Positions 2-24,581 of a stretch of DNA of 64,000 nt are shown piece after piece. The notes under the pieces were generated by a model. That model saw nothing but the letters and a program-made list of their open reading frames with translations. It searched no databases and was not told where the DNA came from. The stretch is from a virus. A program made the position numbers and the translations under genes. The stretch lies in IMG/VR virus record IMGVR_UViG_3300005613_000035, positions 1 to 64,000 of that record; one strand, given 5' to 3'. The number at the start of each line of letters is the position of its first letter. The first letter of the stretch is position 1.

Positions 2-697
2 AAACAAATGTTCAGACTCGATCCGAATGGAACCAAATATTGCCTTAAAATGGATGTAGAAAAATTTTATCCGTCTATCGATCACGTTATATTAAAACAA
101 ATTTTGGCCAAAAAAATTAAAGATCCAGACGTTTTGTGGTTGTTAGGAAAAATAATAGACTCTACTGATAGCGGTGTTCCTATTGGCAATTATTTAAGCC
201 AATATTTTGGCAATATCTATTTAAACAGTATGGATCATTGGATTAAAGAAAGTTTAAGGTGTCAATATTATATTCGATATTGTGATGATATGGTAATACT
301 GGCAGCAAATAAAAGTAAATTGCATGAAATTCGCAAAAAGATCGAAATTTATTTGATCAATAAATTAAATTTGACACTAAAATCTGATTGGCAAGTATTT
401 CCTGTGGGTATTCGTGGGATTGATTTTTTGGGATATAGGTTTTTCCCTGGATTTACATTGCTTAGAAAATCAACGGCGTTACAATTTAAGCGTAAAATGG
501 TGCGTCTAAAAACCCATTGGCAATATATGGAACCCATTAGCATTGTGAGCACGGTAATGAGTTATTATGGATGGATGAAGCATGCCAATTGCCTTAATTT
601 GTGGCATAGACATATTGATGAAAAGATCAAAAAGATTTTAGCACATGCGTGTGAAAAAGGTGGTTTTAATAATCCATTAGAAAAGAAACCTATATGA
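2..697 (+). CDS. Reverse transcriptase of diversity-generating-retroelement type (5' end cut by window edge)
   Basis: This copies an RNA template into cDNA; in a DGR the cDNA, mutated at template adenines, overwrites the 3' end of a target gene. The frame is open to the window edge; residues below count from the internal ATG at 8. Seen: motif A 'LKMDVEKFYPSID' (catalytic Asp about residue 16), 'VPIGNYLSQYFGN' (58-70), the catalytic box 'YCDD' (91-94) and 'FLGYRFF' (140-146). The IGxxxSQ form replaces the QGxxxSP of group II intron enzymes and is a known hallmark of DGR reverse transcriptases. No maturase or endonuclease domain follows. The fingers region is outside the window. The stop overlaps the next start by 4 bp. 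A related non-DGR phage RT is the main alternative. Confidence 0.85.
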   Translation, partial: KQMFRLDPNGTKYCLKMDVEKFYPSIDHVILKQILAKKIKDPDVLWLLGKIIDSTDSGVPIGNYLSQYFGNIYLNSMDHWIKESLRCQYYIRYCDDMVILAANKSKLHEIRKKIEIYLINKLNLTLKSDWQVFPVGIRGIDFLGYRFFPGFTLLRKSTALQFKRKMVRLKTHWQYMEPISIVSTVMSYYGWMKHANCLNLWHRHIDEKIKKILAHACEKGGFNNPLEKKPI

Positions 698-1014
698 CAA
701 TAGCATTAGCAGAAAAGCGAAAAAAATGTTTCTCGGACTTTGTTGCTGAACCTGCTGTATTGGATGGTGACAAGATTAAACTTGACTCTATTTTAAATCA
801 GGAGGTTGAAATTGTAGGATATCGTATTGGTGATACCCGTTATTCTAAAAACAAATCTGGAAAATATTTAACTTTGCAAATCAAAATAGGTTCAGAAGTT
901 AATATCGTATTTACTGGATCTGATGTATTAATAAAACAGATAGAAAAATATAAAGATGAAATTCCATTTTATACGACTATCAAAAAGATTAATAGATATT
1001 ATGCTTTAACATAG
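694..1014 (+). CDS. Small RT-partner protein, possibly OB-fold nucleic-acid binding
   Basis: 106 residues, start overlapping the RT stop in ATGA, so probably translationally coupled. No family is recognised with certainty. The N-terminal 20 residues are basic. From about residue 30 the chain looks all-beta ('LNQEVEIVGYRIGDTRYSK', 'KYLTLQIKIGSEVNIVFTG', 'IPFYTTIKKINRYY'), with a Ser/Lys-rich loop between strands, as in small single-strand-binding OB folds. DGRs usually encode an accessory protein (Avd or HRDC type) beside the RT; this resembles neither, so it may be a different accessory factor that binds template RNA or cDNA. That role is inferred from position and composition only. Confidence 0.7.
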   Translation: MTIALAEKRKKCFSDFVAEPAVLDGDKIKLDSILNQEVEIVGYRIGDTRYSKNKSGKYLTLQIKIGSEVNIVFTGSDVLIKQIEKYKDEIPFYTTIKKINRYYALT

Positions 1015-1025
1015 GAGGCCTAAAC

Positions 1026-1517
1026 ATGAAAAATAAACAAATAATAGTTATATTATCGTTAGTGTTAGCAGCATTGTGTTTAATGTTTTATGCCCATATT
1101 GCCTTTGCAAAAACAGCGGAATCTAAGACATCTCCTCCAACTCTTCAGCAGATTGCACCAGGAACATATTACTACAATTACAATATTGAAGAGATAGAAA
1201 AAACACCGGAGGGTGGTAAGCCTGAAACGTGGTATCAGTATAGCTATGTTATCATTGAGGGCAAGCCGTCCAAGAAGAAAGTTCTTGATGCTATCGCTGA
1301 AGCTGAGTCCAGCACAACCACGGAAGTAGTGGAGGGCATTGCTGCAGAACGAACTACAGCTCAAGAAAAATTAGCTGAAATATCAGCTATGAATTACACA
1401 CAAATTGATTCTTATATTGAGAATGTTTTCGGGAGTCTCAACACTGCTCAAAAGGCGAGTTTGAAGGAGCTGTATAAATCTGTGCTGGCGCTGATTAAGC
1501 AATTGGATTTAGAGTAA
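1026..1517 (+). CDS. Secreted protein of unknown function
   Basis: 163 residues beginning with a signal peptide: basic MKNKQ, a hydrophobic core (about 6-25) and a likely cut after 'HIAFA'. The start follows a strong Shine-Dalgarno AGGAGG at 1014-1019. The mature part has a Thr/Pro/Tyr-rich segment ('PGTYYYNYNIEEIEKTPEGG', then a 'YSYVIIEGKPSKKKVLDAI' stretch) followed by helical sequence with coiled-coil character to the C-terminus. The middle recalls the short tail-fibre-associated domains phages place after fibre genes, but I do not recognise a family. It follows the DGR genes with an 11-bp gap and probably shares their transcript. Confidence 0.75.
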   Translation: MKNKQIIVILSLVLAALCLMFYAHIAFAKTAESKTSPPTLQQIAPGTYYYNYNIEEIEKTPEGGKPETWYQYSYVIIEGKPSKKKVLDAIAEAESSTTTEVVEGIAAERTTAQEKLAEISAMNYTQIDSYIENVFGSLNTAQKASLKELYKSVLALIKQLDLE

Positions 1518-2827: not shown

Positions 2828-4193
2828 TGTAAATCCATTAATGATTAGTGCAAATGATTATTCAGGGACAGACAATGAAAGAATACAGAAGGCTATCAAT
2901 GATGCAGAGTCAATTGGTGGTACTGGGGATTCTGGTCTGATAGGCGGGAAAGTTCTAATACCTGCTGGTAAATGGTATGTTGAAAACTTACAAATAAAAG
3001 AGAGTATCATGTTAGAAGGGGAAGGTGATGGTACTATCTTGTATGGTATGGATAAGAATAAAAGTATTATTTCCATACATTCGGGTGGTGCTCATTATCC
3101 AACAGGAAAGACAACCATACAAAATATGGTATTAGCTTATCCTAACGGTGCAGAATATGGAGTTCCAACAATTTATGTTGCAGGATCTACAGACAAAACC
3201 CGACAATATAATGCCTTCTCAAAGTTTAATAATCTACAAATCCTAAACGCCAGTGTTGGTATACATTTTTATAGAGCAGCATTGTGGTCAGTAGAGGGTT
3301 GCAATTTTGGTGGGTTTTCAATGTATGGCATACACGTTGAAAATTACGCAAACTCTGATAATGGTGATCAAAGTATTTATGGATGTTGCAGATTTCACGG
3401 CAATCTTGGCTCTCTGGCGAGTGTGTTTTACGAATCTGGTGGAGGTCTTAAAATAATTGGGAATAAGTTTTATGGTAATGCAAAGAATAGCCTATGGTTA
3501 CATGGAGAAGAGAGGGCCGATGAAGGTGATAAAGGTAGTGGGGGACTTAATTCTTGGCTAGTAACTGGAAACAGTTTTGAAGGAACGCCTGAAACCGAGC
3601 ATAGTATTTTAATACAAAAGGTTGATTCTGTTATAAATGTTGGTACGATTACAGGGAATGAAATTCAGCATGGAATTTGTATTGACGGAAATCATCCTTC
3701 AGATGTTAGAAACATCCTTATATCAAGTAACAATATGGCAAGCTCCTCAAACAACAGAGTGCCCAAGTCAGCTATAGATATAAGGGGAGCAATGAGAATA
3801 ACTATAAGTTCAAACCACTTTGCACCTTCTGGATCAATAGATACAGGAATTACTATTGATAAAGCCAGCTCAAAAGAAATATCAGTTCTTTCAAATGCTT
3901 TCTTTGGATTTGCGGAAGATAAGAAAGTTGTGGGTTCAGTTGAACCTGTTTGGTGCAAGGGTGACATACTGATTGAAGGCATTTATAAAGCGAAAGGGCA
4001 GGCACCTGGATTCTGGTTAGAGGAAATTGGGGGTTCAGGCGCTTATTTTGTATTGAATCAGGATTGGTTTCAGGTACAACGACGAGCTTTAGGGTTCGGT
4101 GCTTACGAGACTTCACCTATTTTTATTAATATTAAAGCTCCAAGTGCTTCATTACATATTGGGGAGACGGGTCATATCGTAGAGGAGGAATAG
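2817..4193 (+). CDS. Right-handed beta-helix (pectate-lyase-like) tail spike or depolymerase
   Basis: 458 residues. The N-terminus 'NERIQKAINDAESIGG', then 'GGKVLIPAGKWYVENLQIK', is the classic opening of phage Pectate_lyase_3 proteins, where a short helix caps a parallel beta-helix. Irregular repeats rich in Asn, Gly and Ile/Val follow through about residue 370 (for example 'IGNKFYGNAKNSLWL', 'SNNMASSSNN'), then a compact C-terminal domain. Such proteins bind or degrade host polysaccharide as trimeric spikes. No signal peptide is present. The gene overlaps its upstream neighbour, and small membrane proteins follow it. Catalytic residues cannot be assigned from sequence alone. Confidence 0.85.
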   Translation: MVIDVNPLMISANDYSGTDNERIQKAINDAESIGGTGDSGLIGGKVLIPAGKWYVENLQIKESIMLEGEGDGTILYGMDKNKSIISIHSGGAHYPTGKTTIQNMVLAYPNGAEYGVPTIYVAGSTDKTRQYNAFSKFNNLQILNASVGIHFYRAALWSVEGCNFGGFSMYGIHVENYANSDNGDQSIYGCCRFHGNLGSLASVFYESGGGLKIIGNKFYGNAKNSLWLHGEERADEGDKGSGGLNSWLVTGNSFEGTPETEHSILIQKVDSVINVGTITGNEIQHGICIDGNHPSDVRNILISSNNMASSSNNRVPKSAIDIRGAMRITISSNHFAPSGSIDTGITIDKASSKEISVLSNAFFGFAEDKKVVGSVEPVWCKGDILIEGIYKAKGQAPGFWLEEIGGSGAYFVLNQDWFQVQRRALGFGAYETSPIFINIKAPSASLHIGETGHIVEEE

Positions 4194-4194
4194 T

Positions 4195-4362
4195 ATGGAC
4201 TGGAAAAATACAATTGACGAAATGGTCCTGGGGTTAGCGATGATGGTTATTTCTTTAGCCGCTATTGTAGTTCTTGGCAAAGAAAGCGTGCCTATTGTAA
4301 CACCAGCAATAACTGCATATGGTATGTATTTAACAAATCGAAAAAAACCAAATGGGGAATAA
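4195..4362 (+). CDS. 55-residue membrane protein, candidate holin
   Basis: Preceded by a strong Shine-Dalgarno (AGAGGAGG at 4181-4188, inside the end of the spike gene). It reads 'MDWKNTIDEMVLGLAMMVIS' and has a hydrophobic stretch at about 10-27, a GKESVP turn, a second hydrophobic stretch at about 33-46 and a basic tail 'TNRKKPNGE'. Two membrane segments and a charged end are typical of class II holins. It sits among other small membrane and secreted genes. The holin role is inferred from topology and place. Confidence 0.7.
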   Translation: MDWKNTIDEMVLGLAMMVISLAAIVVLGKESVPIVTPAITAYGMYLTNRKKPNGE

Positions 4363-5229: not shown

Positions 5230-6723
5230 ATGATAGATAGTGTTAAAGAAAAGCTAAAAGGCAAGAAAGTAGCTATTTCAGGACATTGGGGAGAGCTTGG
5301 TTGGTTCTTACAATATTACCAACCTCATATGAGGTTTTCAAAGTTTAATAAGTATAAGGATTACGAATTTGTAATTGTTACGGATATGAATAAGCATCCT
5401 TTTATTGAAGACTTTGTAAGTTTTACAATAGGGATGCCGGATTGGTTTTATGATTTAGGACTTGATAGAGATTGTAATGAAGCGGTATTGCCAAATTCAG
5501 AACCTGGATCTTTAACACCTCCTAATGTGTATAGCAGTTTAATTCTTTTTATGAAAGAACTTTGTTCAGAATGTGAAGAATATGAAATGTTGATGCCGTT
5601 AAGAGGGTGTAGCTTCTTAAATAACTTTCAGGGAAAAACGTATTGCAAATATAATAAGGTTAAAGGTATTAGGTCTGACAGACCAATAATTGTTGTTATG
5701 CCTCGTAAGAGGGTGAGAGCACCAAATAGGAACGTACCTGAATTTATTTGGTATGAACTTGTAGAAAAACTTAAAGAAACCTTTTTAGTTATAATTGCTG
5801 GATCTCCTTCTGGAGCATGCCTTCAAAACTACGAGTCTGAAAATGTAGTAAATATTATAAATGTAAAGGACAATATTGAATTAACACTTAAGTACTTAAA
5901 ATCAGCAGTTTGTTCTGTATCGAGTCAGAGTGGTGGTACACATATTAGTTTACTTGCTGTCTGTCCTACATATATTATAGGGCATGAAAAGGATAGGCAC
6001 ACAGTTGAACTTAACAGATTTAATACACCAACTTCGTTTAGGCATGTTCTTGATTATAGAGCTATAGATGCTGATACTATAGTATTAGATTTGCAACAGT
6101 TTATTACAGCTCTTATGCATGAAGGTTGGGTACGAGATGAAATAAACAGACCTTCCTTAAGAACGTTAAGGGATAATAAAGATTTAGTGGGTGTTGAAAT
6201 AGGGGTAGATGCTGGACTTAATTCTTTAAACATGCTTGAAAGCTTGGATATAAAGAAGCTGTACTTGATAGATCCCTATGTATTATACAGAAATTTACTT
6301 AATATTGGTTGTAATGTTTCTGAAGAGCAATGTGTGAAGTTAGAAAAGGAAGCTCATGAACGTTTAAAAGGGTATGAGGATAAAATAGTTTGGGTTAGAG
6401 ATTTATCTGAGAATGCATATGATAAGTTGCCTGACGAACTTGACTTTGTGTATATAGACGGGAACCATAGATACGAGTATGTAAAAAGGGATTTAAAGCT
6501 ATACTATCCAAAAGTAAAGTGTGGTGGTTTAATAGGATGCCACGATTATGATTATCCAGAAACTAAGAAAGGTATTGATGAGTTCTTTGAAGGTTTAAAT
6601 TTAAAAGTTAATTGTATGCGTTGTTCTGATAATCATGATAGAATAGATGCTTGGGTTGTAAAGCCTACATCGTTTGATGAAATTATTATGGATGATGTTG
6701 TAAAACTTAAAGAGTTAATTTAA
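5230..6723 (+). CDS. Fusion of a GT9-like glycosyltransferase and a class I methyltransferase
   Basis: 497 residues, two domains. Residues about 1-300 look like a GT-B glycosyltransferase of the heptosyltransferase (GT9) type, with 'PIIVVMPRKRVRAPNR' before the second half and 'SVSSQSGGTHISLLAVCPTY' as donor-site-like sequence. Residues 319-497 form a Methyltransf_24-type S-adenosylmethionine domain: motif I 'VGVEIGVDAG', 'LYLIDP' (344-349), 'FVYIDGNHRYEYV' (406-418) and 'GCHDYD' (436-441). The C-terminal domain closely resembles the separate protein at 14401-14940. One polypeptide could thus add and methylate a sugar. The acceptor is unknown. First gene of the glycan block. Confidence 0.85.
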   Translation: MIDSVKEKLKGKKVAISGHWGELGWFLQYYQPHMRFSKFNKYKDYEFVIVTDMNKHPFIEDFVSFTIGMPDWFYDLGLDRDCNEAVLPNSEPGSLTPPNVYSSLILFMKELCSECEEYEMLMPLRGCSFLNNFQGKTYCKYNKVKGIRSDRPIIVVMPRKRVRAPNRNVPEFIWYELVEKLKETFLVIIAGSPSGACLQNYESENVVNIINVKDNIELTLKYLKSAVCSVSSQSGGTHISLLAVCPTYIIGHEKDRHTVELNRFNTPTSFRHVLDYRAIDADTIVLDLQQFITALMHEGWVRDEINRPSLRTLRDNKDLVGVEIGVDAGLNSLNMLESLDIKKLYLIDPYVLYRNLLNIGCNVSEEQCVKLEKEAHERLKGYEDKIVWVRDLSENAYDKLPDELDFVYIDGNHRYEYVKRDLKLYYPKVKCGGLIGCHDYDYPETKKGIDEFFEGLNLKVNCMRCSDNHDRIDAWVVKPTSFDEIIMDDVVKLKELI

Positions 6724-6788
6724 TGGTTTATGTTCCTTACTGCCAATTAAATGAGAGAATTATCTAAAAGATATTTTGGGGAATTATA

Positions 6789-7388
6789 ATGATACTTCAT
6801 CCAGATTTTACATTTGTACATTTACAAAAAACTGGTGGTAGTTTTGTAGAGGACTTTTTACTAAATAATATTGTAGGCTGTAAGCAAGTTCTGCCGAGAC
6901 ATGTACCTGCAAGAGCTGCTCCTAAAGATATATTTAAGTTTGGTTGTGTTAGAAATCCTTTTGATTGGTATGTTTCTTTGTGGGCATCACATAAGGATGA
7001 GCCAGCCTTTTTTGAAGAAATTATGGATATGGATTTTAAGAAGTTTATGTATAAAACGTTTAATAAAAAATCTGGTATACTACATGATGTGGATTTTGAT
7101 GTATTAACTAATTTAAATATAGGTATGTATACTTATAGATACATGAGGAGTTTTTATTCTTTAGATGGTACATTTTTGTTGAATGCTGTTATAGATATGC
7201 CTTTTATTAAAGAAGGTTTGACAAGAGTTCTTGACTTAAATGAACAACAAATTAATAATTTGAATAGTAAAGCTAAAGTAAATACGTCAGATCATGATGA
7301 TTACAGAACTTATTATGATGACGAATTAATTAAGTTAGTTGAGGAGCGGGATATGTCTATCCTGGATCATTATAATTATGAATTTTAA
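6789..7388 (+). CDS. Sulfotransferase (PAPS-dependent family), copy 1
   Basis: 199 residues. Family members move sulfate from PAPS to sugar or other hydroxyls. Seen: the 5'-phosphosulfate loop 'FVHLQKTGGSFVE' (9-21) and the 3'-phosphate box 'VRNPFDWYVSLW' (54-65), both in the expected order. It closely resembles the protein at 8433-9140, including the ends ('HYNYEF' here, 'HNNYEF' there). The next gene starts inside that last codon run, at an ATG in another frame. It is shorter than many sulfotransferases but keeps both binding motifs. The acceptor is unknown; the surrounding glycosyltransferases suggest a glycan. Confidence 0.85.
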   Translation: MILHPDFTFVHLQKTGGSFVEDFLLNNIVGCKQVLPRHVPARAAPKDIFKFGCVRNPFDWYVSLWASHKDEPAFFEEIMDMDFKKFMYKTFNKKSGILHDVDFDVLTNLNIGMYTYRYMRSFYSLDGTFLLNAVIDMPFIKEGLTRVLDLNEQQINNLNSKAKVNTSDHDDYRTYYDDELIKLVEERDMSILDHYNYEF

Positions 7389-8436
7389 AACAGACTGTAA
7401 GTTCTTTAAAGGCAATGTTCCGTGTATTCCAAATAAAAAGTATGATGTGCAATGTGATAATTGTATATATTATGCTCCAGTTGCATATAGAATTCTTATT
7501 ATTAAATTAGCAGCTATAGGTGATGTTATTAGAACAACACCAGTTTTAACAAGGCTTAGAAAATTATATCCAAATGCCTTAATATATTGGTTAACATCAA
7601 CACCTGATATATTACCAGATGAAGTTGATTATAAATTGGAATATTCTTATGAGAATATTCAAGTACTTAAGTCTATACAATTTGATTTATTACTTAATCT
7701 TGATAAATCTGGAGAAGCTTGTTCTGCTACTTATCAGATACCTTCATATAGTAAGCGTGGCTTTACATTGTTAGATGGTAAACCATATCCAATTAATAAA
7801 GCTGCTGAACATAAATATATAACTGGTATATTTGATAGTGTTAGTAAAGCAAACACTAAAAGTTATGTAGAAGAGATATTTGAAATATGTGAAATTGGGG
7901 AGTTTAATAATGAAGAGTATATATTAGACGTTGATACTAAAAATTGTATTGTATTACCATCCAAAAGTTTGGCTAAAGTTATTGGATTAAATACTGGCTG
8001 TAGTGATAGATGGAAATCAAGACTTTGGGATCTTGAAAATTGGGTAGAGTTGGCTGAGAAACTCATAGATAGAAAATATGAAGTTGTGCTGTTAGGTGGA
8101 GAAAATGAAAATATAAATAATAAGTATATTGCTAAAAAAAGTGGCGCAAAATATTTTGGCACGTTTCCAATTAAGGATTTCATTAGTATTGTTAATTTTT
8201 GTGATCTTGTAGTTTCACAAGTTACTTTAGTGGCACATATAGCAATTGCATTAAAGAAAAAATTAGTACTAATGAATAACATTTTTAATAAGCATGAGTT
8301 TTATTTGTATGGACGTGGTAAAATTATAGAACCTGATATTAACTGTAATTGTTTTTATTCTCCTGTATGTAAAAATGACTGTATGAAGTACATAACTGTG
8401 GCTACGGTATTACAAACTATAGGTGAATTGATGTGA
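7378..8436 (+). CDS. GT9-like glycosyltransferase (heptosyltransferase family)
   Basis: 352 residues from the ATG at 7378, which overlaps the sulfotransferase stop; an upstream in-frame ATG at 7339 is deeper in that gene and less likely. The N-terminus carries a Cys cluster ('DCKFFKGNVPC', 'VQCDNCIYY') that may bind metal. Then comes the GT9 signature 'ILIIKLAAIGDVIRTTPVL' (about 39-57), the typical opening of ADP-heptose:LPS transferases and relatives. 'LNTGCSDRWKSRLWDLENWV' and 'VVSQVTLVAHIAIALKK' follow as donor-domain motifs. It probably extends a surface glycan. The ends interlock with sulfotransferase genes on both sides. Confidence 0.88.
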   Translation: MNFKTDCKFFKGNVPCIPNKKYDVQCDNCIYYAPVAYRILIIKLAAIGDVIRTTPVLTRLRKLYPNALIYWLTSTPDILPDEVDYKLEYSYENIQVLKSIQFDLLLNLDKSGEACSATYQIPSYSKRGFTLLDGKPYPINKAAEHKYITGIFDSVSKANTKSYVEEIFEICEIGEFNNEEYILDVDTKNCIVLPSKSLAKVIGLNTGCSDRWKSRLWDLENWVELAEKLIDRKYEVVLLGGENENINNKYIAKKSGAKYFGTFPIKDFISIVNFCDLVVSQVTLVAHIAIALKKKLVLMNNIFNKHEFYLYGRGKIIEPDINCNCFYSPVCKNDCMKYITVATVLQTIGELM

Positions 8437-9140
8437 TATTTCATCCTGATTTTTTGTTTGGTCATTTGGAGAAAACTGGTGGTACATTTATAGAGAAATA
8501 TTTAACTACTAATATTCCTAAAGCTAAACATAAAAGAAAAGTAAATAGGCATGATTCATTCTATAATTGTATGCCAGATACAGATGTTTTGAAGTTTGGG
8601 TATATTAGAAATCCATATGATTGGTATGTGTCGTTTTGGGCATTCACACAGAAGCACAGAGTTTATAAATTTTTACTAAATAACTACAGTGGTAATAATG
8701 TAAATATGTTTATAGAAGATTTGTTTAAATCTGACAAAGCAATATGCTACAATACAGATACTGTATTAAAAAGTTCTACTGATATTTTAAGACCTTTTGA
8801 TTTATATGTTTCTAATAAGTTAGACATAGGGCTTCTTACCTATAGATATTTATACATATATTATCATCCTGATGTATTTAAGGATATACAGAACTATAAA
8901 AAGTATAAGATAGTAGATAAAGTATTACAGTTTGAGAATTTGCTGGAAGAATTTGTTACATTTTTTAAAGAGAACCTGTTTGAATTAGATGAAGATAAAA
9001 TATATAAATTGTATAGTATGAAAAAAATTAGAGTTACCAAGCACGATCATTATTCTAAATATTACACTAAAAAAACTATTGATTTAATACAACACAAAGA
9101 TAGAATAATTTTTAAGGAACACAATAATTATGAATTTTGA
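8433..9140 (+). CDS. Sulfotransferase (PAPS-dependent family), copy 2
   Basis: 235 residues, GTG start at 8433 overlapping the previous stop (GTGA). The 5'-phosphosulfate loop 'HLEKTGGTFIEKYL' (11-24) and the 3'-phosphate box 'IRNPYDWYVSFW' (58-69) are intact. It is a paralogue of 6789-7388: same opening (M-I-[LF]-H-P-D-F), same motif order and nearly the same C-terminus. The longer middle (about 70-140) separates the two in likely acceptor choice. The next gene starts inside the last codons, the same junction design as after copy 1. Confidence 0.85.
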   Translation: MIFHPDFLFGHLEKTGGTFIEKYLTTNIPKAKHKRKVNRHDSFYNCMPDTDVLKFGYIRNPYDWYVSFWAFTQKHRVYKFLLNNYSGNNVNMFIEDLFKSDKAICYNTDTVLKSSTDILRPFDLYVSNKLDIGLLTYRYLYIYYHPDVFKDIQNYKKYKIVDKVLQFENLLEEFVTFFKENLFELDEDKIYKLYSMKKIRVTKHDHYSKYYTKKTIDLIQHKDRIIFKEHNNYEF

Positions 9141-10140
9141 TTCAAGGATTTACAGTTATTACCATGAAATTAAAGAGTTAAATAAAGGTAGGTTTCCGTA
9201 CCCAAGATTTTTAGCCTTATACCCAACTAATACATGCCAGTTTAATTGTATGTTTTGCGATTATAAAGCACTTAATTCTCGTAAGGCAAGACATTTAAAG
9301 GTTGATGAATGGAAATACATATTAGATACTTTTAAGAATAACGGTGGAGAAGGTGTTGGGCTATCTGGTGGTGGTGAACCATTAATGTTGGAATCTATAA
9401 CAGAGCTGTTATTCTATATAAAGAAATTAGGATTAAGTGTTAATTTAATAACTAACGGGTTGAATATAGATAAAAAAAGAAAGCCTAAATTGTATGATGC
9501 TTTAATGGAAACATGCTCTTTTATTAGAGTTTCATTTGAAGCAGGATCTCCAGAAGTATTTAATAAAATCAAGGGTAAGAATTACTTCAATAGAATAATA
9601 GGTAATGTTACAGAGTTTATAAAGGATAAACCAAAAGATTTACAGGTGTCATATAAATATACGATACCTTCATCTTACAGTATAGAAGATATAGAAAATG
9701 CTATATGTATAGCTGATGATGTTGGATTCTATTCTATTCAGTTTAAAGCTGTATGCAATGCTGAAAATAAGTTAACCGAACCTGATAAAAAAGCGTTAAA
9801 GGAGTATATAAGTACTATATCTGCAAATACTACAAACGTGATATGTGACTTAAATACTTATGTTAAAGAAGATGATGGCTGTCTTATATCAGCTATTCAA
9901 ACTTTAATAGATTGTAATGGTGATGTGTACATATGTTGTTATTATACCCATAGAATTAAAGAGCATAGAATAGGGAACGTGTTTGAAACTAAGTTTGAGG
10001 ATATTTGGGGTACATGGAAGCATATAAAGAAAATAGTTGAAGTAGATTGCTCAAAGTGTAATTTGTATGATTGTAGATATATACGGTATGCACATATCAT
10101 GGAAGAAAAAATTAATAACAACTATTTTAGTTTTATTTGA
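9130..10140 (+). CDS. Radical SAM enzyme with SPASM-like C-terminus
   Basis: 336 residues. The cluster motif Cys36-x3-Cys40-x2-Cys43 ('TNTCQFNCMFCDYK') binds the 4Fe-4S cluster that cleaves S-adenosylmethionine. 'VGLSGGGEPLM' is the expected GGE motif. The C-terminal part has further Cys ('LIDCNGDVYICCYY', then 'VDCSKCNLYDCRY') in SPASM/twitch style, which bind auxiliary clusters or substrates. Such enzymes act on peptides, sugars or alcohol groups; here, among glycan genes, a sugar-modifying or dehydrogenase role is plausible but not shown. The ATG lies inside the sulfotransferase 3' end. Confidence 0.88.
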   Translation: MNFDSRIYSYYHEIKELNKGRFPYPRFLALYPTNTCQFNCMFCDYKALNSRKARHLKVDEWKYILDTFKNNGGEGVGLSGGGEPLMLESITELLFYIKKLGLSVNLITNGLNIDKKRKPKLYDALMETCSFIRVSFEAGSPEVFNKIKGKNYFNRIIGNVTEFIKDKPKDLQVSYKYTIPSSYSIEDIENAICIADDVGFYSIQFKAVCNAENKLTEPDKKALKEYISTISANTTNVICDLNTYVKEDDGCLISAIQTLIDCNGDVYICCYYTHRIKEHRIGNVFETKFEDIWGTWKHIKKIVEVDCSKCNLYDCRYIRYAHIMEEKINNNYFSFI

Positions 10141-10152
10141 GGATAAATACAT

Positions 10153-10929
10153 ATGAGAGTTGCATTATGTCTTAGTGGACAAGCCAGAAGTATAGACAAA
10201 TGTTGGCCTACATTTTTAAAGCATATAGTAAATAAAACTGATTGTGATATATTTATGTCTTTTGCAAATGATAGTTCTGCCGGTGCTTTATTTGAAACTA
10301 AAGATTTAAAGTATACTGAGTTAGAATTAATAAAAGATCCAAGTTTAGAGTATTTGTATAGTGTAGCAAGGGGTGATACAACATATATTAAGCATCTTGG
10401 AGTTATGGGAAAAGAATGCACTAACTTAGCTATATTAAGACAGTTATATTTTGTAAATAGGTGTAATAATTTAAAAATAGGCTATGAAAAAAAGAATGGG
10501 TTTGTTTATGATTGGGTTATAAGAAGCAGAGCTGACGTGTTGTTGGGAAGTGACATTCTTGATTTAAGTAAACTATCTAATGAGAATATATATACACCAG
10601 ATACTAATACGCATAAGGGATTAAATGATTTCTTTGCATATGGATCATCAAAAAACATGGATATATACTCAAATAGAATAAATGAAATTAAAGAGATTGA
10701 TTCTCCTCCGTTTCCTTTTTGGAACCCACATGTAGAGTTGGCATATATTTTACACGTTAAGAATAATATTAAAGTAGCACTTCTTCCAATGGATATAAGA
10801 CGAGAAAGGGATTGGAGAGGTAAATATGATAGTAAAATATATGAATATTATGGAAAATATAGTGAGGGTTTAGTAGAAAGAAAGAAAGAAAAAATAGGAA
10901 GAGAAGAAAAAAACAATGAAAGAGTGTAG
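10153..10929 (+). CDS. Putative glycosyltransferase with RSRAD motif
   Basis: 258 residues. It opens 'MRVALCLSGQARSIDKCWPT', the start seen in a group of phage, viral and bacterial sugar transferases, and has 'DWVIRSRADVLL' near 120-130, where the acidic pair is in the position of a metal-binding DxD. No membrane segment. The C-terminus is very Lys/Glu-rich. It overlaps the following methyltransferase by 14 bp. Donor and acceptor are unknown. Confidence 0.75.
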   Translation: MRVALCLSGQARSIDKCWPTFLKHIVNKTDCDIFMSFANDSSAGALFETKDLKYTELELIKDPSLEYLYSVARGDTTYIKHLGVMGKECTNLAILRQLYFVNRCNNLKIGYEKKNGFVYDWVIRSRADVLLGSDILDLSKLSNENIYTPDTNTHKGLNDFFAYGSSKNMDIYSNRINEIKEIDSPPFPFWNPHVELAYILHVKNNIKVALLPMDIRRERDWRGKYDSKIYEYYGKYSEGLVERKKEKIGREEKNNERV

Positions 10930-11644
10930 TAAATCAATTCAAAGAAGATTACACAACCCAAACTTTTCAAGGGTATACTTTAAAGGTATTGGGATAGATA
11001 TAGGTGGTGGATCAGATCCACTATCTTTTTATGAATATCTATTTCCACTAATAAAAAGTATTAGGGTGTATGATAAAGAAGACGGGGATGCTCAAGTTAT
11101 GAGTGGTGTACAAAGTAACTATTATGATTTTGTACATAGTAGTCATTGTTTAGAGCATTTAGAAGATCCGGTTGAGGGTATTTCAAATTGGTTTAGAATA
11201 CTTAAACCAGATGGGTATTTAATTATTACAATACCAGATGAAGATTTGTATGAGCAGGGTGTGTTCCCAAGTACTTTTAACGCAGATCATAAATGGACAT
11301 TCACTATTTTCAAAGGGTTTTCTTGGAGTACTAAATCTATAAATATTATAGATATTATAAAAGAGTTAGGTACAGAAGCATCAGTTGAGAAGATTGAATT
11401 ATTAAACACTACATATAGACATGGTATTCCAAGGTATGACCAAACACGCCTACCTACTACAGAGTGTGGTATTGAAATAATTATAAGAAAGAGAACACAA
11501 GATGAAATATTTAACAAAAAAAGGGAGTATCCTCAACCTAACATAGATGACCTAAAATATTTTAATCAGTATATTGATGACAACAAGGTACTTAAAGAAT
11601 CTAATAAAATACTACAACCATTTAACAACTACTTGGAAATATAA
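10916..11644 (+). CDS. Class I SAM-dependent methyltransferase (Methyltransf_11 type)
   Basis: 242 residues. Motif I is 'GIDIGGGSDPLSF', followed by 'YDFVHSSHCLEHLEDP' and 'FRILKPDGYLIITIPDED', the usual post-motif sequence of Methyltransf_11 proteins. The C-terminal third is less typical. It is likely to methylate a sugar or another small acceptor in the same pathway as its neighbours. The start overlaps the upstream glycosyltransferase by 14 bp, and the next gene starts 1 bp after the stop. Confidence 0.85.
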   Translation: MKECSKSIQRRLHNPNFSRVYFKGIGIDIGGGSDPLSFYEYLFPLIKSIRVYDKEDGDAQVMSGVQSNYYDFVHSSHCLEHLEDPVEGISNWFRILKPDGYLIITIPDEDLYEQGVFPSTFNADHKWTFTIFKGFSWSTKSINIIDIIKELGTEASVEKIELLNTTYRHGIPRYDQTRLPTTECGIEIIIRKRTQDEIFNKKREYPQPNIDDLKYFNQYIDDNKVLKESNKILQPFNNYLEI

Positions 11645-11645
11645 T

Positions 11646-12560
11646 ATGAATAAAACTGTAATAATAGTTGGAGTGCTTTTAGATAAATCATCTACTAATG
11701 TGTCAATGGCTAAAGCGTTTATGAAGTTGGGGTTCAAGATTTTACCTATCAATTATAGGTCCATAATTCAGAAGCATGGACATCAGCTCTTTGAAAATTT
11801 GTTGATTGAAACAGTTAAGAAACATACACCAGTCTTAACAATCTTTTGCAAGTGTAATGGTGTTAATCCTGAAATAGTTAAGGAGTGTACTAAGTTTAGC
11901 ACTACTTGGCTTTGGAATCCAGATCCATATCAAACTATAGAACAATGTCCTGAAGTTATAGAGCATATGAAGAATTGTAAATTCTGTTCAAGTACTGGTG
12001 GTGGAACTCATGAAAGGTTTGTAAGAAAGTATGGATTAACTAATAGTTATCATATATTTTGTGGGTTAGATTATGATTTATATAAACCTGTAGAGTCTGT
12101 ACCTGAGTATGAAGCTGATATATCATTTATTGGTAATTCAACACCTGAACGAGACTACTTTAAGAAAGTACTGGAAGCTAAGTATAAAACTAAGTTCTAT
12201 GGTAGTGGATATATAAAATCAGTATATGAGGAAGAGTTTTCTAAGGTTTGTAGTAGTTCAACCTTTATGCTTTCATTAAATACATACAATGATATTCCAG
12301 ATTATTTTAGCAATCGCTTGTTACGGTATATGAATTCAGGTACTTGCGTTCTACATTATGATCCTACTAACACGCTTTACAAATACTTTAAGCATGGTGA
12401 AGAAATATTATTCTTTAGAAGTACCGAAGAATTGTTAGACTTAATAAATAATACTACTTTAGCAAAAGCTGGTAAAATTGCATTATATGGAAGAGAGAAG
12501 GTGTTACGGAATTACACTTGGGAACACACAATTCAAAATATGCTAAATATTGCTGTATAA
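11646..12560 (+). CDS. CgeB-like glycosyltransferase (Glyco_trans_1_2 type)
   Basis: 304 residues from the ATG at 11646, chosen because it follows the methyltransferase stop; an in-frame ATG at 11574 would overlap that gene by 71 bp. The C-terminal half is characteristic: 'CGLDYDLYKPV', 'ADISFIGNSTPERDYF', then 'FSNRLLRYMNSGTCVLHYD' and 'KHGEEILFFRSTEEL', the donor-binding part of CgeB/DUF3880-type GT-B enzymes. It belongs to the glycan block and ends 17 bp before the next gene. Confidence 0.85.
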   Translation: MNKTVIIVGVLLDKSSTNVSMAKAFMKLGFKILPINYRSIIQKHGHQLFENLLIETVKKHTPVLTIFCKCNGVNPEIVKECTKFSTTWLWNPDPYQTIEQCPEVIEHMKNCKFCSSTGGGTHERFVRKYGLTNSYHIFCGLDYDLYKPVESVPEYEADISFIGNSTPERDYFKKVLEAKYKTKFYGSGYIKSVYEEEFSKVCSSSTFMLSLNTYNDIPDYFSNRLLRYMNSGTCVLHYDPTNTLYKYFKHGEEILFFRSTEELLDLINNTTLAKAGKIALYGREKVLRNYTWEHTIQNMLNIAV

Positions 12561-12577
12561 CTTAAAGGAAATACAAT

Positions 12578-12868
12578 ATGAATATACCAAGTAAAATAAA
12601 GCTTAGTGGTCATGAAATACAAGTTGATTTTGCAACTACTAAAAGTATGGAAAATATAGGGAGTTTTAATAATTATCATAACTTAATTCGTTTAGAAAAA
12701 GAGGAGGAAACACCTGAAGATAATGTTGCTGAATGTTTTTTACATGAGATTATTGAAGCTATAAAATTTAAGAATAATCTTGTTATAGATCATGTACATT
12801 TATCTGTTTTATCCGAATGTTTATTTCAAGTTTTGAGGGATAATAAACTTTCATTTCACGAGGCTTAA
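12578..12868 (+). CDS. Small conserved phage protein with HExxE-like motif
   Basis: 96 residues. 'AECFLHEIIEAIKF' (about 51-64) resembles the HExxH/HExxE zinc site of small ImmA/IrrE-like or phage metallopeptidase-fold proteins, but only His and Glu are evident and no second ligand region is clear. Short proteins of this type ('PSKIKLSGHEIQV' at the start) are widespread in phages and have no settled role. It lies between a glycosyltransferase and a methyltransferase and is not an obvious glycan enzyme. Confidence 0.75.
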   Translation: MNIPSKIKLSGHEIQVDFATTKSMENIGSFNNYHNLIRLEKEEETPEDNVAECFLHEIIEAIKFKNNLVIDHVHLSVLSECLFQVLRDNKLSFHEA

Positions 12869-12876
12869 CTATATAT

Positions 12877-13707
12877 ATGAAAGAACACATTAGTCATGAT
12901 TTTTCAAAAATGGGTGGGTTTATCTTAAATATTGTTCTTGATACTGGTGTTTTGAAATATAGAGGTATTGGTGGAATAAAGATATTAAAAAAGTTTTTCT
13001 ATAGCTTTTTTAGAGGTCTTGGCTACTTTATTACTATTGATGAAGGAGCTATGGATTTAGATATTGCAGACAAAAAGTATTATGCTCCAACATTTATGCC
13101 TTGGATTAAGGATGGATATGGTGATTTTGGTTCTTATTCTAAATGTATTAAAAATCATACTGTAGTTTCACCAGACAGACAATACACTTTATTTACTCTT
13201 GCAAAACAGGCTATTCATATTGATGGTGATTGGGTAGAATGCGGAGTGTATAAAGGTGGCACAGCGATACTTCTTGCTAAAATAATGAAGGGTGCTACAT
13301 TGCATTTGTTTGACACATTTTCTGGAATGCCTGCTACTAATTCTGATATAGATATTATGCAGGAAGGTACTTTTTCTGATTGTTCTTTTGATGAAGTTAA
13401 GAAAGTAATTAGTGAAGTTTGTACTAATGTTAAATATTATAAAGGGGTTATTCCAAACACATTCAATGATTGTGATATAGATAAAATAGCAATAGCTCAT
13501 GTGGACGTAGATTTGTTTGAGTCGGCAATAGATTGTTGTAAATTCATTTATCCAAGATTATCTGCTGGAGGATTTATTGTGTTTGACGATTATGGTTTTG
13601 CAGATTGTCCTGGTGTAAAAAAAGCTGTTGATGAATTCTTTGAGGATAAGCCCGAAGTTCCATTAGTTCTTCAGACAGGTCAAGCAATTATAGTAAAGGT
13701 AGTTTAA
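12877..13707 (+). CDS. TylF/macrocin-O-methyltransferase-family protein
   Basis: 276 residues. The TylF pattern is clear: 'GDWVECGVYKGGTAILLAKI' (motif I), 'LHLFDTFSGMP', 'IAIAHVDVDLFESAIDCC' (acidic metal/SAM region) and 'GGFIVFDDYG...CPGVKKAVDEFF'. Known relatives methylate hydroxyls of deoxysugars in glycosides. An N-terminal extension of about 80 residues precedes the domain. The stop overlaps the start of the FkbM-type gene by one base (TAATG). It is likely to methylate the glycan built by the adjacent transferases. Confidence 0.88.
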   Translation: MKEHISHDFSKMGGFILNIVLDTGVLKYRGIGGIKILKKFFYSFFRGLGYFITIDEGAMDLDIADKKYYAPTFMPWIKDGYGDFGSYSKCIKNHTVVSPDRQYTLFTLAKQAIHIDGDWVECGVYKGGTAILLAKIMKGATLHLFDTFSGMPATNSDIDIMQEGTFSDCSFDEVKKVISEVCTNVKYYKGVIPNTFNDCDIDKIAIAHVDVDLFESAIDCCKFIYPRLSAGGFIVFDDYGFADCPGVKKAVDEFFEDKPEVPLVLQTGQAIIVKVV

Positions 13708-14384
13708 TGATAGATTTGAATTATGAGTTGTATAAAGAAAGTAATGATTTTATAGAAAGTAAAGTATCTAAAGAATACTGTAAAAACAACACGTATAAAA
13801 ATAAGGTTACATATTTTGCATCCTATATTAAACCTGGTATGACTGTAATAGATGCTGGTGCTTGTGTTGGAGTTTTTACTGTATTGTTTGATAAGTTAGT
13901 ATTACCTAACGGTAGAGTGTATGCATTTGAGCCTGATATTAGTAACTATATAAATCTGGTTAAAAATGTGGGAGATAGCACTACCTCATTTACAAATTCT
14001 GCACTGTCTAATTATCATGGTACTGGTTTTCTTTGTAAATTTAAGGATTATATAGGTTGGCATTATTTAACTGAATCGTCTAAGGAAGATAATGTGTATG
14101 TTACATATATAGATAAGTTTTGTAAGGATAATGGGGTATCTAAAGTTGACCTGATGAAAATAGATGTTGAGGGTGCAGACTTGAAAGTATTACAAGGTGC
14201 TGAAGAAACCATACATAGGAATAAAAACATAAGTATAATTATTGAAATTCATAATGGTGGTAGATTTTTAGAGCAAAAGAATGATGTATTGGAATTCCTT
14301 AGAAATAGGGGATTTACGTTGTATGACTTAAACGATAACTTTAATACTGAAGGTAAGATGTTTGAAGTACTCGCAACAAGATAA
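13707..14384 (+). CDS. FkbM-family methyltransferase
   Basis: 225 residues. 'GMTVIDAGACVGVFTVLFD' (motif I), 'GRVYAFEPDISNYINLVKNV' and 'VDLMKIDVEGADLKVLQGAE' are the defining FkbM motifs. Family members methylate hydroxyl groups, including on sugars and lipopolysaccharide. Complete, normal length. Directly coupled to the TylF-like gene upstream. Confidence 0.9.
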   Translation: MIDLNYELYKESNDFIESKVSKEYCKNNTYKNKVTYFASYIKPGMTVIDAGACVGVFTVLFDKLVLPNGRVYAFEPDISNYINLVKNVGDSTTSFTNSALSNYHGTGFLCKFKDYIGWHYLTESSKEDNVYVTYIDKFCKDNGVSKVDLMKIDVEGADLKVLQGAEETIHRNKNISIIIEIHNGGRFLEQKNDVLEFLRNRGFTLYDLNDNFNTEGKMFEVLATR

Positions 14385-14400
14385 TTGAAAGAGAGGTTGT

Positions 14401-14940
14401 ATGCAAAATGATAAGAATTTATGGAATTTTCGTCCAGCTTGGATGCAGTTGGTGTCAAGAAATAATGTAGTTGGATTAGAAGTAGGGGTTGCAAAAGGTA
14501 TAAACGCATATAATATGTTACGATTTTTAGATATTAAAAAGCTATACTTATTAGATCCTTATCTACCACAATCTGAAGTAGCAGATAGCGATGGTGAAAG
14601 ACCTTATGGTGAAGGCAATTATAGACAAGATAAATACAAAGCCGAAAGTTTGTTGAAACCATTTGAGGATAAGATAGAATGGATATTTGAAACGACTGAA
14701 GATGGTATTGGGAAAATATCAGATGAGAGTTTAAGTTTCGTATATATAGATGGATGCCATAAATATGATAGTGTAAAAAAGGATATTAACTTATGTATTC
14801 CAAAGGTTATATTTGGTGGAGTTCTTGGGGGCCATGATTGGAGTTCTTCTCATCCTGGGGTTGTTAATGCTGTTCTTGAAAAGTTTGGTAGGGATAAGAT
14901 TTTCTCATTACATCAAGACTGGTGGATAATTAAAGAATAG
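14401..14940 (+). CDS. Class I methyltransferase (Methyltransf_24 type), stand-alone paralogue
   Basis: 179 residues. 'VGLEVGVAKGINAYNMLRF', 'KKLYLLDPYLPQ', 'LSFVYIDGCHKYDSVKKDI' and 'GGVLGGHDWSS' line up with the C-terminal domain of the fusion at 5230-6723, motif by motif. So the block has this domain both fused and free. The likely role is O-methylation of a sugar. Shine-Dalgarno-like GAGAGG lies at 14391-14396. Confidence 0.85.
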   Translation: MQNDKNLWNFRPAWMQLVSRNNVVGLEVGVAKGINAYNMLRFLDIKKLYLLDPYLPQSEVADSDGERPYGEGNYRQDKYKAESLLKPFEDKIEWIFETTEDGIGKISDESLSFVYIDGCHKYDSVKKDINLCIPKVIFGGVLGGHDWSSSHPGVVNAVLEKFGRDKIFSLHQDWWIIKE

Positions 14941-14944
14941 AAAA

Positions 14945-15979
14945 ATGGAAAATTATAATAAAGATACCGCATTAAAATATATAAAATCTGTGCTGGATTC
15001 TGGCAGTCTTAGTGGAAATGGCATATATACTAAGAAATGTCACAAATGGTTTGAAAAGAATCTTAATTGTAATAAAGCTTTTTTAACAAATTCTTGCACT
15101 TCAGCTATTGAATTAGCAGCTATATTGATGGACTTACAGCCAGATGATGAAATTATAATGCCTTCATTTTCATTTGTATCAGTTGCAAATGCGTTCCTTG
15201 TACATAAATGTAAGATAGTTTTTGTAGATATTAAAGCAAGCACGTTGTGTATTGACGAGAATGAGTTTAAGAAAGCAATAACTAAGAAAACAAAAGCTGT
15301 AGTTCTGGTACATTATGCTGGAGTATCTTGTGATATAGATAAGATTGTTAAGATAGCAAAGAAGAATAATATTATTGTAATAGAAGATGCAGCTCAAGGA
15401 TTTTTAGCTAAGTATAAAGATAGATACTTAGGAACTATTGGTGATTTTGGTGCAATAAGTTTTCATGATACAAAGAATATTACTTGTGGTGAAGGTGGAG
15501 TTCTGCTTGTAAATAATAAGAATTACATAGCCAGAGCAGACATTGTTTGGGAAAAGGGGACTAACAGACAAGAATTCTTACGTGGTGAGATTGATAAGTA
15601 TTCATGGGTTGATATTGGATTATCATTTCCTCCAAGTGAGATTACAGCGGCATTTTTGTACAGTTCCTTACAGATAGCTAAAAAACTAACTAAGAAAAGG
15701 TTAACGCGATGGAATGCGTTATATAAAAAGTATGATAAATTAGGTATGGGTATGATGCCATTTATTCCGAAATACTCAATACATAATGGTCATATATTTT
15801 ATATAATAGCTCCAAGAACTGAAAGGGATACTGTTATTTCTTTGTTAAGAGAGTTATATGTGAATGCTAAGTTTCATTTTGTTCCATTGCATTCATCTAA
15901 GTTTGGAAGAACTATATGTGATTATGATCTTCCTGTAACAGATTTAATAAGTGAGAGTTTAGTTAGAATTCCTTTGTAA
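14945..15979 (+). CDS. PLP-dependent nucleotide-sugar aminotransferase (DegT/DnrJ/EryC1, WecE-like)
   Basis: 344 residues. This family transfers an amino group to a keto sugar such as TDP-4-keto-6-deoxyglucose. Seen: 'LTNSCTSAIELAA' (phosphate site), 'IVIEDAAQGF' (Asp148, pyridine nitrogen), 'ISFHDTKNITCGEGG' with the Schiff-base Lys177, and 'KYSWVDIGLSFPPSEITAAF'. The order and spacing fit WecE/RffA. It is shorter than usual (family about 375): it stops right after 'SESLVRIPL', where relatives continue with a C-terminal helix. No dehydratase or thymidylyltransferase is in the window, so its substrate would be host-made. Confidence 0.88.
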   Translation: MENYNKDTALKYIKSVLDSGSLSGNGIYTKKCHKWFEKNLNCNKAFLTNSCTSAIELAAILMDLQPDDEIIMPSFSFVSVANAFLVHKCKIVFVDIKASTLCIDENEFKKAITKKTKAVVLVHYAGVSCDIDKIVKIAKKNNIIVIEDAAQGFLAKYKDRYLGTIGDFGAISFHDTKNITCGEGGVLLVNNKNYIARADIVWEKGTNRQEFLRGEIDKYSWVDIGLSFPPSEITAAFLYSSLQIAKKLTKKRLTRWNALYKKYDKLGMGMMPFIPKYSIHNGHIFYIIAPRTERDTVISLLRELYVNAKFHFVPLHSSKFGRTICDYDLPVTDLISESLVRIPL

Positions 15980-16011
15980 ACAACGTTTATCATTCTAAAT
16001 AGAAAATAAGT

Positions 16012-16677
16012 ATGGATAGTTTAAAAGATTGTGAGGAGATTCTTGTGTTAGGGGATTCTCATGCTATAGTATTCCTTAATGAAAAGTTTAAAACTACCTT
16101 TAATAACTTTGTTTTCAATGTATGCAAAGTTGGAGGAGCTACTTTATCAGGTATGAAAAATCCTAACACAATTACTCAAGCTATGCCAATTTTTTTAAGG
16201 TGTATCAAAATGTCTAAAGCTATGCAAGTCATTACTCTTATAGGTGAAGTAGATACAGGGTTCTTAATTTGGCATAGTGCTAATAAATATAATATATCAA
16301 TTTCAGAAGCATTAGATAAAGTAGTACAGAATTATATAGAGTTTCTAACTATGCTATCAAATAATTTTAAGGTTATTTGTATTAGTACACCACTTCCTGT
16401 AATAACGGATGGTGCCTATAAGGGTAAGGTTGCAAACGCTCGTAAAACTGTTAAAGCTACTCAAAAACAAAGAATAGAACTAACATTTACACTTAATAAA
16501 ACTATCAAAGAATTCTGTAAAAAAGAACAAATTGTGTTTGTAGATTTAGACATTAAATCATTGGGTAATGATGGATTAATTAAACCAGATTTGTTAAATG
16601 AAGACCCTTGTGATCATCACTATAATTCTGATGTGTATGCAGATTTAATTATTGAAGAATTAAAAAACATTTTATAG
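16012..16677 (+). CDS. SGNH/GDSL-type hydrolase-like protein
   Basis: 221 residues. 'EEILVLGDSHAIVF' near the N-terminus is a block I motif with the nucleophile Ser, 'TLIGEVDTGF' is in the place of later blocks, and 'DPCDHHYNSDVYADLIIEEL' near the end holds the Asp-x-x-His pair (block V). Such proteins add or remove acyl groups on surface glycans. The fold assignment is reasonable; activity is inferred from motifs only. Confidence 0.75.
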   Translation: MDSLKDCEEILVLGDSHAIVFLNEKFKTTFNNFVFNVCKVGGATLSGMKNPNTITQAMPIFLRCIKMSKAMQVITLIGEVDTGFLIWHSANKYNISISEALDKVVQNYIEFLTMLSNNFKVICISTPLPVITDGAYKGKVANARKTVKATQKQRIELTFTLNKTIKEFCKKEQIVFVDLDIKSLGNDGLIKPDLLNEDPCDHHYNSDVYADLIIEELKNIL

Positions 16678-16689
16678 AAAGGGGAGCTA

Positions 16690-17388
16690 TTGGAAAATAG
16701 ATTAGTTGTTACAAGAGCTGATGAGAATATATCAGAGATGACAAGTATTACTCATGAATACTTGAGGAAGTATGCTGATATCTGTAAGGCAGACTTTAAG
16801 GTGCTTGATAGCAATACCTGGCCACACTATCACTATAGGATATTAGAGTTGTACAAGTTGTTTGAAACGTATGATAGAATCTTGTGCTTAGATTCAGATA
16901 TTTTAATACTTAAAACATGTCCTAATATCTTTAAGCTTGTACCAGAAGATTGCATAGGTACTATATATGAAGATAAAGGTAGTAGGCTTGAAGATAGAAG
17001 AAATAGAATAGAGAAAATACAGAAAGAACGTGGTAATGTTGGATGGTATGAGAATTACATTAATACTGGAGTTATAATATTTTCTAAAATACATAGGGAG
17101 TTATTCAATCTTAACAAAGATGAATTATGGATGTCATTAGGATTTGATGATGTGGAATTAGGATTTCAAATTCATAGATTAGGCTATAATGTATATGAGC
17201 TTCCTTGTGAATGGAATTTTATGTCAATGCATAATGAAGGATGGAATCAGAATTCCTCAAGGTTTGATGCATTTATTATACATTATGCAGGGATGGGAAA
17301 TTTCTATGGAAGGCATATAAATAAAAGTAGGTTTGATTTTATAAAGGAAGACTATTTAGTTCTAAAAAAATATGATTTGCTAATATAA
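16690..17388 (+). CDS. GT8-like glycosyltransferase
   Basis: 232 residues, TTG start at 16690 with AAAGGGGAG just upstream. 'YDRILCLDSDILIL' holds the DxD metal site (Asp68, Asp70), and 'YINTGVIIFSK' and 'GFDDVELGFQIHRLGYNVY' follow, with a HYAGMG near the end as in GT8 (LgtC/glycogenin) enzymes that use HxGxx to bind the donor phosphate. A retaining transferase using a UDP-sugar is likely. Confidence 0.82.
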   Translation: MENRLVVTRADENISEMTSITHEYLRKYADICKADFKVLDSNTWPHYHYRILELYKLFETYDRILCLDSDILILKTCPNIFKLVPEDCIGTIYEDKGSRLEDRRNRIEKIQKERGNVGWYENYINTGVIIFSKIHRELFNLNKDELWMSLGFDDVELGFQIHRLGYNVYELPCEWNFMSMHNEGWNQNSSRFDAFIIHYAGMGNFYGRHINKSRFDFIKEDYLVLKKYDLLI

Positions 17389-17400
17389 GGAATTAAAATA

Positions 17401-18057
17401 ATGATCAATTTAAATGTGGAGGGAACTTGTGGGGATGCATTTACTGTATGCTTAAAACTGTGGGCTATTGATAATGAAGAGATAAAAATTTTCCATAAGA
17501 CTGTACACACACAGTTTTATCCTCAGATTAGGGATATATATGGCCTGAAGAAAAATATAGAGGTAGCGTTTGTAGATAATTTTAATGATAGAGAAGAGTA
17601 CCTTGAACTTTCAGGTGTGCCTTATAAAAATAACCCAGACTCTATGGTTTGGTTCCCTGATTTAAAGTTACCGTATGTTTCAATTTTGGATTACCCATAT
17701 ATAGTGATTTGTCCTCATGCTGGTAGAGAGGATGCTATGGCTCGATCAGTACCTATTAAAACAATAGAGTACATGATAGAAGAAGTATCCCCTATTAAAT
17801 GTATTCTGCTGGGTACAAATAGTACGTATAAAGGTATAAAGAATTGTGAGAATTTAATTGGTGAAACTAATGTTATTGAGGCAATGTCTATAATAAGTGA
17901 TTGTAATGGATTCTGTGGTCCTGAAGGGCTTCTTTGTTTTGTTGCATTAAGCCAGCTAATTCCAAGTGTAATATTTTGGGTTAGATGGCAACCTATAGAA
18001 GCAAGAGTTATAGGGACTCCCTGGCAAGAGCATATTATAGATTTGATAAAAATATAA
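17401..18057 (+). CDS. Short GT9-like glycosyltransferase
   Basis: 218 residues. 'LNVEGTCGDAFTVCLKLWAI' resembles the glycine-rich start of GT9 enzymes, and 'YIVICPHAGREDAMARSVP', 'IKCILLGTNSTYKGIKNCEN' and 'SDCNGFCGPEGLLCFVALSQ' match the donor-domain sequence of the family. At about two thirds of usual GT9 length it lacks part of the N-terminal domain, so it may be reduced or have shed the acceptor half. It is the third GT9-like unit of the block. Confidence 0.7.
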   Translation: MINLNVEGTCGDAFTVCLKLWAIDNEEIKIFHKTVHTQFYPQIRDIYGLKKNIEVAFVDNFNDREEYLELSGVPYKNNPDSMVWFPDLKLPYVSILDYPYIVICPHAGREDAMARSVPIKTIEYMIEEVSPIKCILLGTNSTYKGIKNCENLIGETNVIEAMSIISDCNGFCGPEGLLCFVALSQLIPSVIFWVRWQPIEARVIGTPWQEHIIDLIKI

Positions 18058-18070
18058 TGGGAGAGGATAC

Positions 18071-18742: not shown

Positions 18743-18753
18743 TAGGTGATAGT

Positions 18754-24501: not shown

Positions 24502-24530
24502 TTGACTCTTTGTAAGTAGTGTGTTATACT
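24502..24530 (+). promoter_or_regulatory. Sigma-70-type promoter for the endonuclease gene
   Basis: TTGACT at 24502-24507, a 17-bp spacer, and TATACT at 24525-24530, five of six matches in each box. It starts 3 bp after the tail tube stop and directs transcription of the following endonuclease. A private promoter in the middle of a late operon is typical of free-standing mobile genes. Confidence 0.75.
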
Positions 24531-24535
24531 GTAAT

Positions 24536-24565: not shown

Positions 24566-24581
24566 ATACAGGAGATTAAAT

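Follow-up and report, generated by a model that had tools for sequence, protein, structure and literature searches.

The feature studied here, bases 2 to 1014 at the start of the window (the whole 64,000-base stretch of virus DNA that was analysed), is probably the 3′ end of a phage diversity-generating retroelement (DGR), and the small partner protein encoded after its reverse transcriptase (RT) is probably an RT-bound, nucleic-acid-binding accessory factor of DGRs that have no Avd. In the proposed mechanism the full element would have the order found in the closest relative, locus L003, that is, target gene with variable repeat (VR), template repeat (TR), RT and partner. The template RNA would be copied by the RT into adenine-mutated cDNA, and this cDNA would replace the VR of a tail-type protein, a step read solely from the TR/VR differences of relatives. 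The partner, whose gene overlaps that of the RT, would bind the RT and hold the template RNA or the nascent cDNA, and would do the job for which BPP-1-type elements use Avd; in BPP-1 the structured template RNA recruits the RT-Avd complex and Avd is required, according to passages of PMC12875486. An RT subunit of this kind is proposed because no Avd is present, the two genes overlap, natural fusions occur and the predicted fold is of a single-strand-binding type. The linkage, the C-terminal fusion, the predicted fold and the absence of Avd were observed; binding to RT and nucleic acid and a need for the partner in retrohoming are inferred.

The RT gene is on the plus strand at bases 2 to 697, an open frame of 231 residues which has no start codon and runs off base 1. 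Base 1 of the window is also base 1 of the 81,188-base virus record, hence the contig end truncates the RT and only its C-terminal 231 residues are present; alignment to L003, its nearest relative, covers residues 150–379 of 381 at 76% identity, so that about 149 N-terminal residues are missing. The protein matches RVT_1 (E 7.8e-12) and the phage RT family phrog_1423 (E 1.7e-78), which goes beyond chance, as does the close match of the partner to that of L003. The first-pass annotation had called a DGR-type RT from two motifs and had described a 4-base overlap with a 106-residue frame. Both motifs were located on the plus strand, IGNYLSQ at 182–202, where all three group II intron RTs of our outgroup carry QGG..SP, and the catalytic YCDD at 278–289. 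The partner gene (694–1014, plus strand, 106 residues) shares the bases ATGA at 694–697 with the RT gene, its ATG overlapping the RT stop.

The RT type was further checked by phylogeny. The tree has 98 rows including three group II intron RTs as outgroup; near-identical RTs were removed before it was built (255 to 98 rows) and RTs shorter than 290 residues were dropped before the counts, the window's RT excepted. The 95 non-outgroup rows share one side of a branch with support 100/100, the window's RT pairs with L003 (100/96), and it falls inside a 72-row clade (100/99). The tree, phrog_1423 and IGNYLSQ place the window's RT among the DGR RTs, as had been claimed from the motifs, and away from the RTs of group II introns. 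In agreement with this, of 110 loci whose RTs are related, L003 among them, 100 have adenine-biased TR/VR pairs (bias was called at a threshold of 70% of mismatches at A, and some of the 110 loci are contigs present twice). The lineage can be read firmly as one of DGRs, and for this virus we infer the same.

In L003 a 124-base TR stands directly before the RT, the VR closes a long tail-type ORF, all 24 TR/VR mismatches are at template adenines, and the orthologous RT-partner pair comes after the repeats. For the window it had been noticed that no template or variable repeat is visible, and a repeat search of the window and of the whole 81,188-base record agreed: no adenine-biased pair was found near the RT or anywhere in the record. 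The longer record starts at the same base 1 as the window, and the placing of target and template upstream of position 1 by the first-pass annotation stands as an observation in L003 and as an expectation for this virus. A circular contig with the missing RT half at its other end was ruled out, since the record has no end repeats closing a circle and its ends do not overlap. The single biased repeat match in the record is a 59-base inverted one with 75% of its 16 mismatches at T; it joins two coding regions which resemble each other and lie far from the RT. Its source is a pair of proteins with the same repeated Cys/His-rich module, encoded at 24519–26774 (plus strand) and 53911–54816 (minus strand). 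TR and target are thus absent from the window and from the rest of the record. Three other loci (L009, L010 and L011) have a second adenine-biased repeat pair about 2–3 kb before the first.

Along its full length the partner shares 81% identity with that of L003. Comparison with L003 gave dN of 0.15 for the RT and 0.11 for the partner, with dS saturated in both cases, and thus both genes look to be under purifying selection. A conserved N-terminal motif, F-S-D-F, lies at 730–741 and the best conserved stretch of the family, F-T-G-S, at 910–921, both on the plus strand. The window's partner has a pI of 9.1 and 51 members range from 5.1 to 9.5 with a median of 8.6, so the basic charge is not universal. 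Searches against Pfam, NCBIfam and PADLOC families and a sequence search of the PDB gave no match to the partner, and only phrog_19665, a family of unknown function, matched the partner family (8 of 15 members, best E 1.1e-5).

The first-pass annotation had described an OB-like protein unlike Avd or HRDC and had proposed structure prediction as a check. The AlphaFold2 model of the partner (47 rows, pLDDT 86.7) has the order strand-strand-strand-helix-strand-strand, which is that of the five-strand OB barrel (b1-b2-b3-a-b4-b5), so membership in the OB-fold is predicted. No PDB structure matched the model in Foldseek at E <= 0.001. When solved structures were re-ranked, OB-fold domains came on top, with the OB domain of RuvBL2 at Z 7.1 (68 residues, 2.8 Å), a bacterial SSB at Z 6.3 (68 residues, 2.2 Å) and domains of HIN, RPA, POT1 and Teb1 also among the matches; all of these Z values are below 8 and may mean a common arrangement only. 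In a library of viral models, the top two matches (E 2.5e-7 and 1.1e-5) carry the annotation RT or intron-encoded protein, an independent sign that such a domain is joined to RTs elsewhere. Avd is a helical bundle. Save for short helices, the predicted structure of the partner is all-beta, and its profile comparison with Avd gave P 0.78, so a divergent Avd is ruled out; HRDC in Pfam matched none of 47 members at E up to 0.1, and the partner belongs to neither family.

Partner and Avd were not found together. Among 208 distinct RTs, 102 have the partner, 59 have Avd, none has both and 47 have neither, eight of these last loci having less than 700 bases after the RT. The bAvd family PF22296 matched nothing in the window's record and nothing in 49 whole records bearing the partner, with both controls positive; likewise the partner was found in none of the 47 records of partner-less loci by a query that matched six of six known carriers. 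This exclusion represents few evolutionary events, as Avd follows RT ancestry and its label needs only 2–3 changes on the tree. Well supported branches carry at least 6–7 changes in partner presence, which are most simply explained as losses, and therefore some close relatives do without a recognisable partner. The 72-row clade holds 41 rows with partner, 28 with neither, 3 unassigned and none with Avd. Since 47 of the 208 distinct RTs, many of them in this clade, have neither protein, either the partner is not strictly needed there or something unseen replaces it. The wider proposition is that a large RT clade of Avd-less DGRs in phages, prophages and archaeal viruses uses a dedicated OB-fold subunit, repeatedly fused to the RT, and that mutagenic retrohoming has at least two unrelated ways of handling template RNA or cDNA, Avd being just one; we hold the chances for and against this to be evenly balanced.

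RT and partner domain follow each other in one protein in eight loci (L016, L020, L022, L192 and L289–L292, the last four from whole genomes). At the junctions the RT end runs into the partner's own F-x-D start, the N-terminal motif being retained, and the partner is at the C-terminus of the RT. Three fused rows in the RT tree need two changes, so the fusion probably arose at least twice. In the model of the L192 fusion the RT part is good, most of the OB part has pLDDT below 50 and the docking is unreliable. These fusions bear on the chief rival explanation, by which the partner is a dedicated SSB that acts after cDNA synthesis, coats and protects the mutated cDNA and aids its annealing to the VR. 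The predicted shape, related to SSB, RPA, POT1 and Teb1, would suit such a role, and passages of PMC12875486 on BPP-1 point to lagging-strand single-stranded DNA as the cDNA entry site; however, fusion to the RT in eight loci favours a role during synthesis or directly coupled to it, and we consider the post-synthesis role unlikely, while giving it more weight than any other rival.

The linkage of partner to RT was surveyed in 146 partner loci, obtained by profile searches of loci selected by RT or partner searches; apart from the 208 distinct RT sequences, all locus counts include some contigs fetched repeatedly. The partner accompanies a DGR-type RT in 141 of the 146, being downstream on the same strand in 134, upstream in 3 and inside the RT protein in 4. 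Overlap with the RT gene is seen for 87 of the downstream partners; another 4 are within 50 bases of it and 43 at 51–600 bases, and the commonest spacing is −4 (31 loci); ORF starts were taken as the first possible start codons, so these spacings are approximate. Starting from the RT, 19 of the 31 loci from the two initial searches had the partner, as did 42 of 77 in the RT scan; this last figure overstates the frequency of the partner among all DGRs because the seeds of the RT and partner scans were relatives of the window. Starting from the partner alone, an RT was present in 71 of 76 newly numbered loci. Members of the first two sets supplied the profile behind these three counts. In four RT-less loci (L150, L157, L186 and L191) the partner lies within 200 bases of a contig end; in the fifth, L179, the partner gene is at 3908–4336 and no RT was found in the 35.5-kb record, so that this partner is perhaps a remnant of a lost DGR. 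The whole-genome test covered 393 bacterial genomes of the order of G101 at E <= 1e-5; the partner was found in 11 of them with 12 matches, and all 12 are located at a DGR-type RT (8 beside it, 4 inside it). A scan of species genomes gave six partner loci, whose titles name Bacteroidota groups, with an RT in every one. Among named phage records, the window's partner matched only ANMV-1 virus and vir525 (host Methanosarcinales), in both cases directly after the RT. A general phage single-strand binding protein living apart from DGRs was rejected on the 71 of 76 and 12 of 12 counts, with L179 as the one true exception.

The same survey bears on the explanation that takes the partner for a passenger, some phage gene with another function which came to lie in the DGR operon by chance. 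Its absence from many close relatives (28 of the 72 clade rows) and the RT-less contig L179 speak for this; against it, searches with the partner only return to an RT almost always, whole genomes included, RT-partner fusions occur, and gene order varies while the partner always stays by the RT. We regard a passenger as improbable. Still less probable is a regulator, for example a repressor of translation or transcription of the RT or the template RNA which takes no part in the reaction itself: the overlap of the genes in 87 of 134 loci would allow coupled translation and OB-folds bind RNA in regulation too, but the partner is also found fused to the RT C-terminus. That the RT is a group II intron or defence RT and not a DGR RT is hardly credible. 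On its side are weaker matches to group II, DRT and retron models and the lack of TR/VR in the 81,188-base record; against it speak the phrog_1423 match, a TIGR04416 score that reaches only 75 of the 300 bits needed, IGNYLSQ, the tree with its group II outgroup (which rules out a group II intron RT) and the TR/VR pairs of relatives.

The gene that follows the partner (1026–1517, plus strand, 163 residues, unknown function) has a similar counterpart after RT and partner in L003. Small genes like it turn up again and again in DGR loci, whether the partner is there or not, one of them after the RT in L004 and others between RT and partner in L008, L044 and L042; of four wider gaps between RT and partner read by eye, three hold a somewhat similar small ORF. 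Its order relative to the partner varies and the partner is always by the RT. The product of this recurring gene is possibly a tail-protein chaperone. Further along the window, an HNH endonuclease gene (1879–2367, HNH_3 E 1.3e-17) is inserted just after the DGR end. By eye, many methyltransferase-, sulfotransferase-, glycosyltransferase-, radical-SAM- and aminotransferase-like ORFs follow one another over 5230–19443 of this phage genome, and an ORF of 947 residues at 51059–53902 on the minus strand resembles ribonucleotide reductase and has an intein-like insert.

If the proposal is true, an OB-fold partner conserved in many Avd-less elements and sometimes joined to the RT would explain how part of the Avd-less DGRs work, a compact one- or two-piece mutagenesis enzyme would be on offer, and the role of an accessory subunit could be tested by comparing two unrelated accessories. 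An Avd-like domain is beside only 62% of DGR RTs in complete genomes according to passages of PMC8934634, and about a quarter of DGRs are said in parts of PMC7290462 to lack any known accessory homologue. The suggestion of the first-pass annotation that the partner is a new DGR accessory factor is supported by linkage, gene fusion and Avd absence; the partner is a candidate for such a factor, and an earlier description is possible. No description of an OB-fold DGR accessory was found in the literature searched, whose scope did not take in Wu et al. 2018, the 2024 survey of Carrasco-Villanueva et al. and Handa et al. 2025. A passage of PMC10053308 relates that one DGR-associated protein outside the Pfam and CDD families was suggested by Wu et al., and this unnamed accessory might be the same as the partner.

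Among known systems, the crAssphage LMMB DGR is described in parts of PMC7290462 as lacking avd, with the order target-TR-RT. Its RT is in the same 72-row clade as the window's RT and has no recognisable separate partner. This RT (431 residues) has a C-terminal extension co-linear with the partner whose similarity is not significant. A divergent OB domain in crAssphage RTs is only a lead: the co-linear alignment has P 0.0078, with 1 of 20 shuffles scoring higher, and the fold of the partner matched the RT of crAssphage cr7_1 at E 8.8e-3. The RTs of cr6_1, cr52_1, cr56_1 and cr60_1 have no such extension, and a scan for crAss-type RTs gave no match. The annotated RT frame of cr7_1 (L266, 3896–4855) has three in-frame TAG before its TAA end, and it too has a C-terminal extension co-linear with the partner but without significant similarity. 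Elsewhere, L091, L092 and L094 carry a DGR-type RT, and five in-frame TGA in the L091 record suggest a TGA-recoding virus.

The Treponema denticola DGRs have, according to portions of PMC4891356, an HRDC accessory gene which overlaps the RT gene and is not Avd, like the window's partner; it stands between TR and RT, whereas the window's partner stands after the RT and has no HRDC match. Caudoviricetes sp. vir525, a Methanosarcinales virus, has an RT and then a partner homologue with their ends overlapping and TR/VR before both, and the homologue is annotated only as hypothetical protein. In the DGR of ANMV-1 virus, a partner homologue (45.7% identical) is directly after the RT and the TR/VR are adenine-biased, as in the window's lineage, while its RT is distant (37% identity), lies outside the 72-row clade on a long, weakly placed branch, and bAvd is absent from the record. 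The ANMV-1 figure legend in Paul et al. 2015 (PMC4372165) labels an ORF Avd, and in passages of the same paper Avd-type ORFs of nanoarchaeal DGRs are marked by size and pI. The BPP-1 DGR (brt, avd, TR, mtd) shares with the window's lineage a DGR RT, and, as seen in the relatives, adenine-mutated TR/VR and a tail protein target; there Avd precedes the TR and a partner homologue is lacking, whereas the window's lineage, free of bAvd, has the OB partner after the RT.
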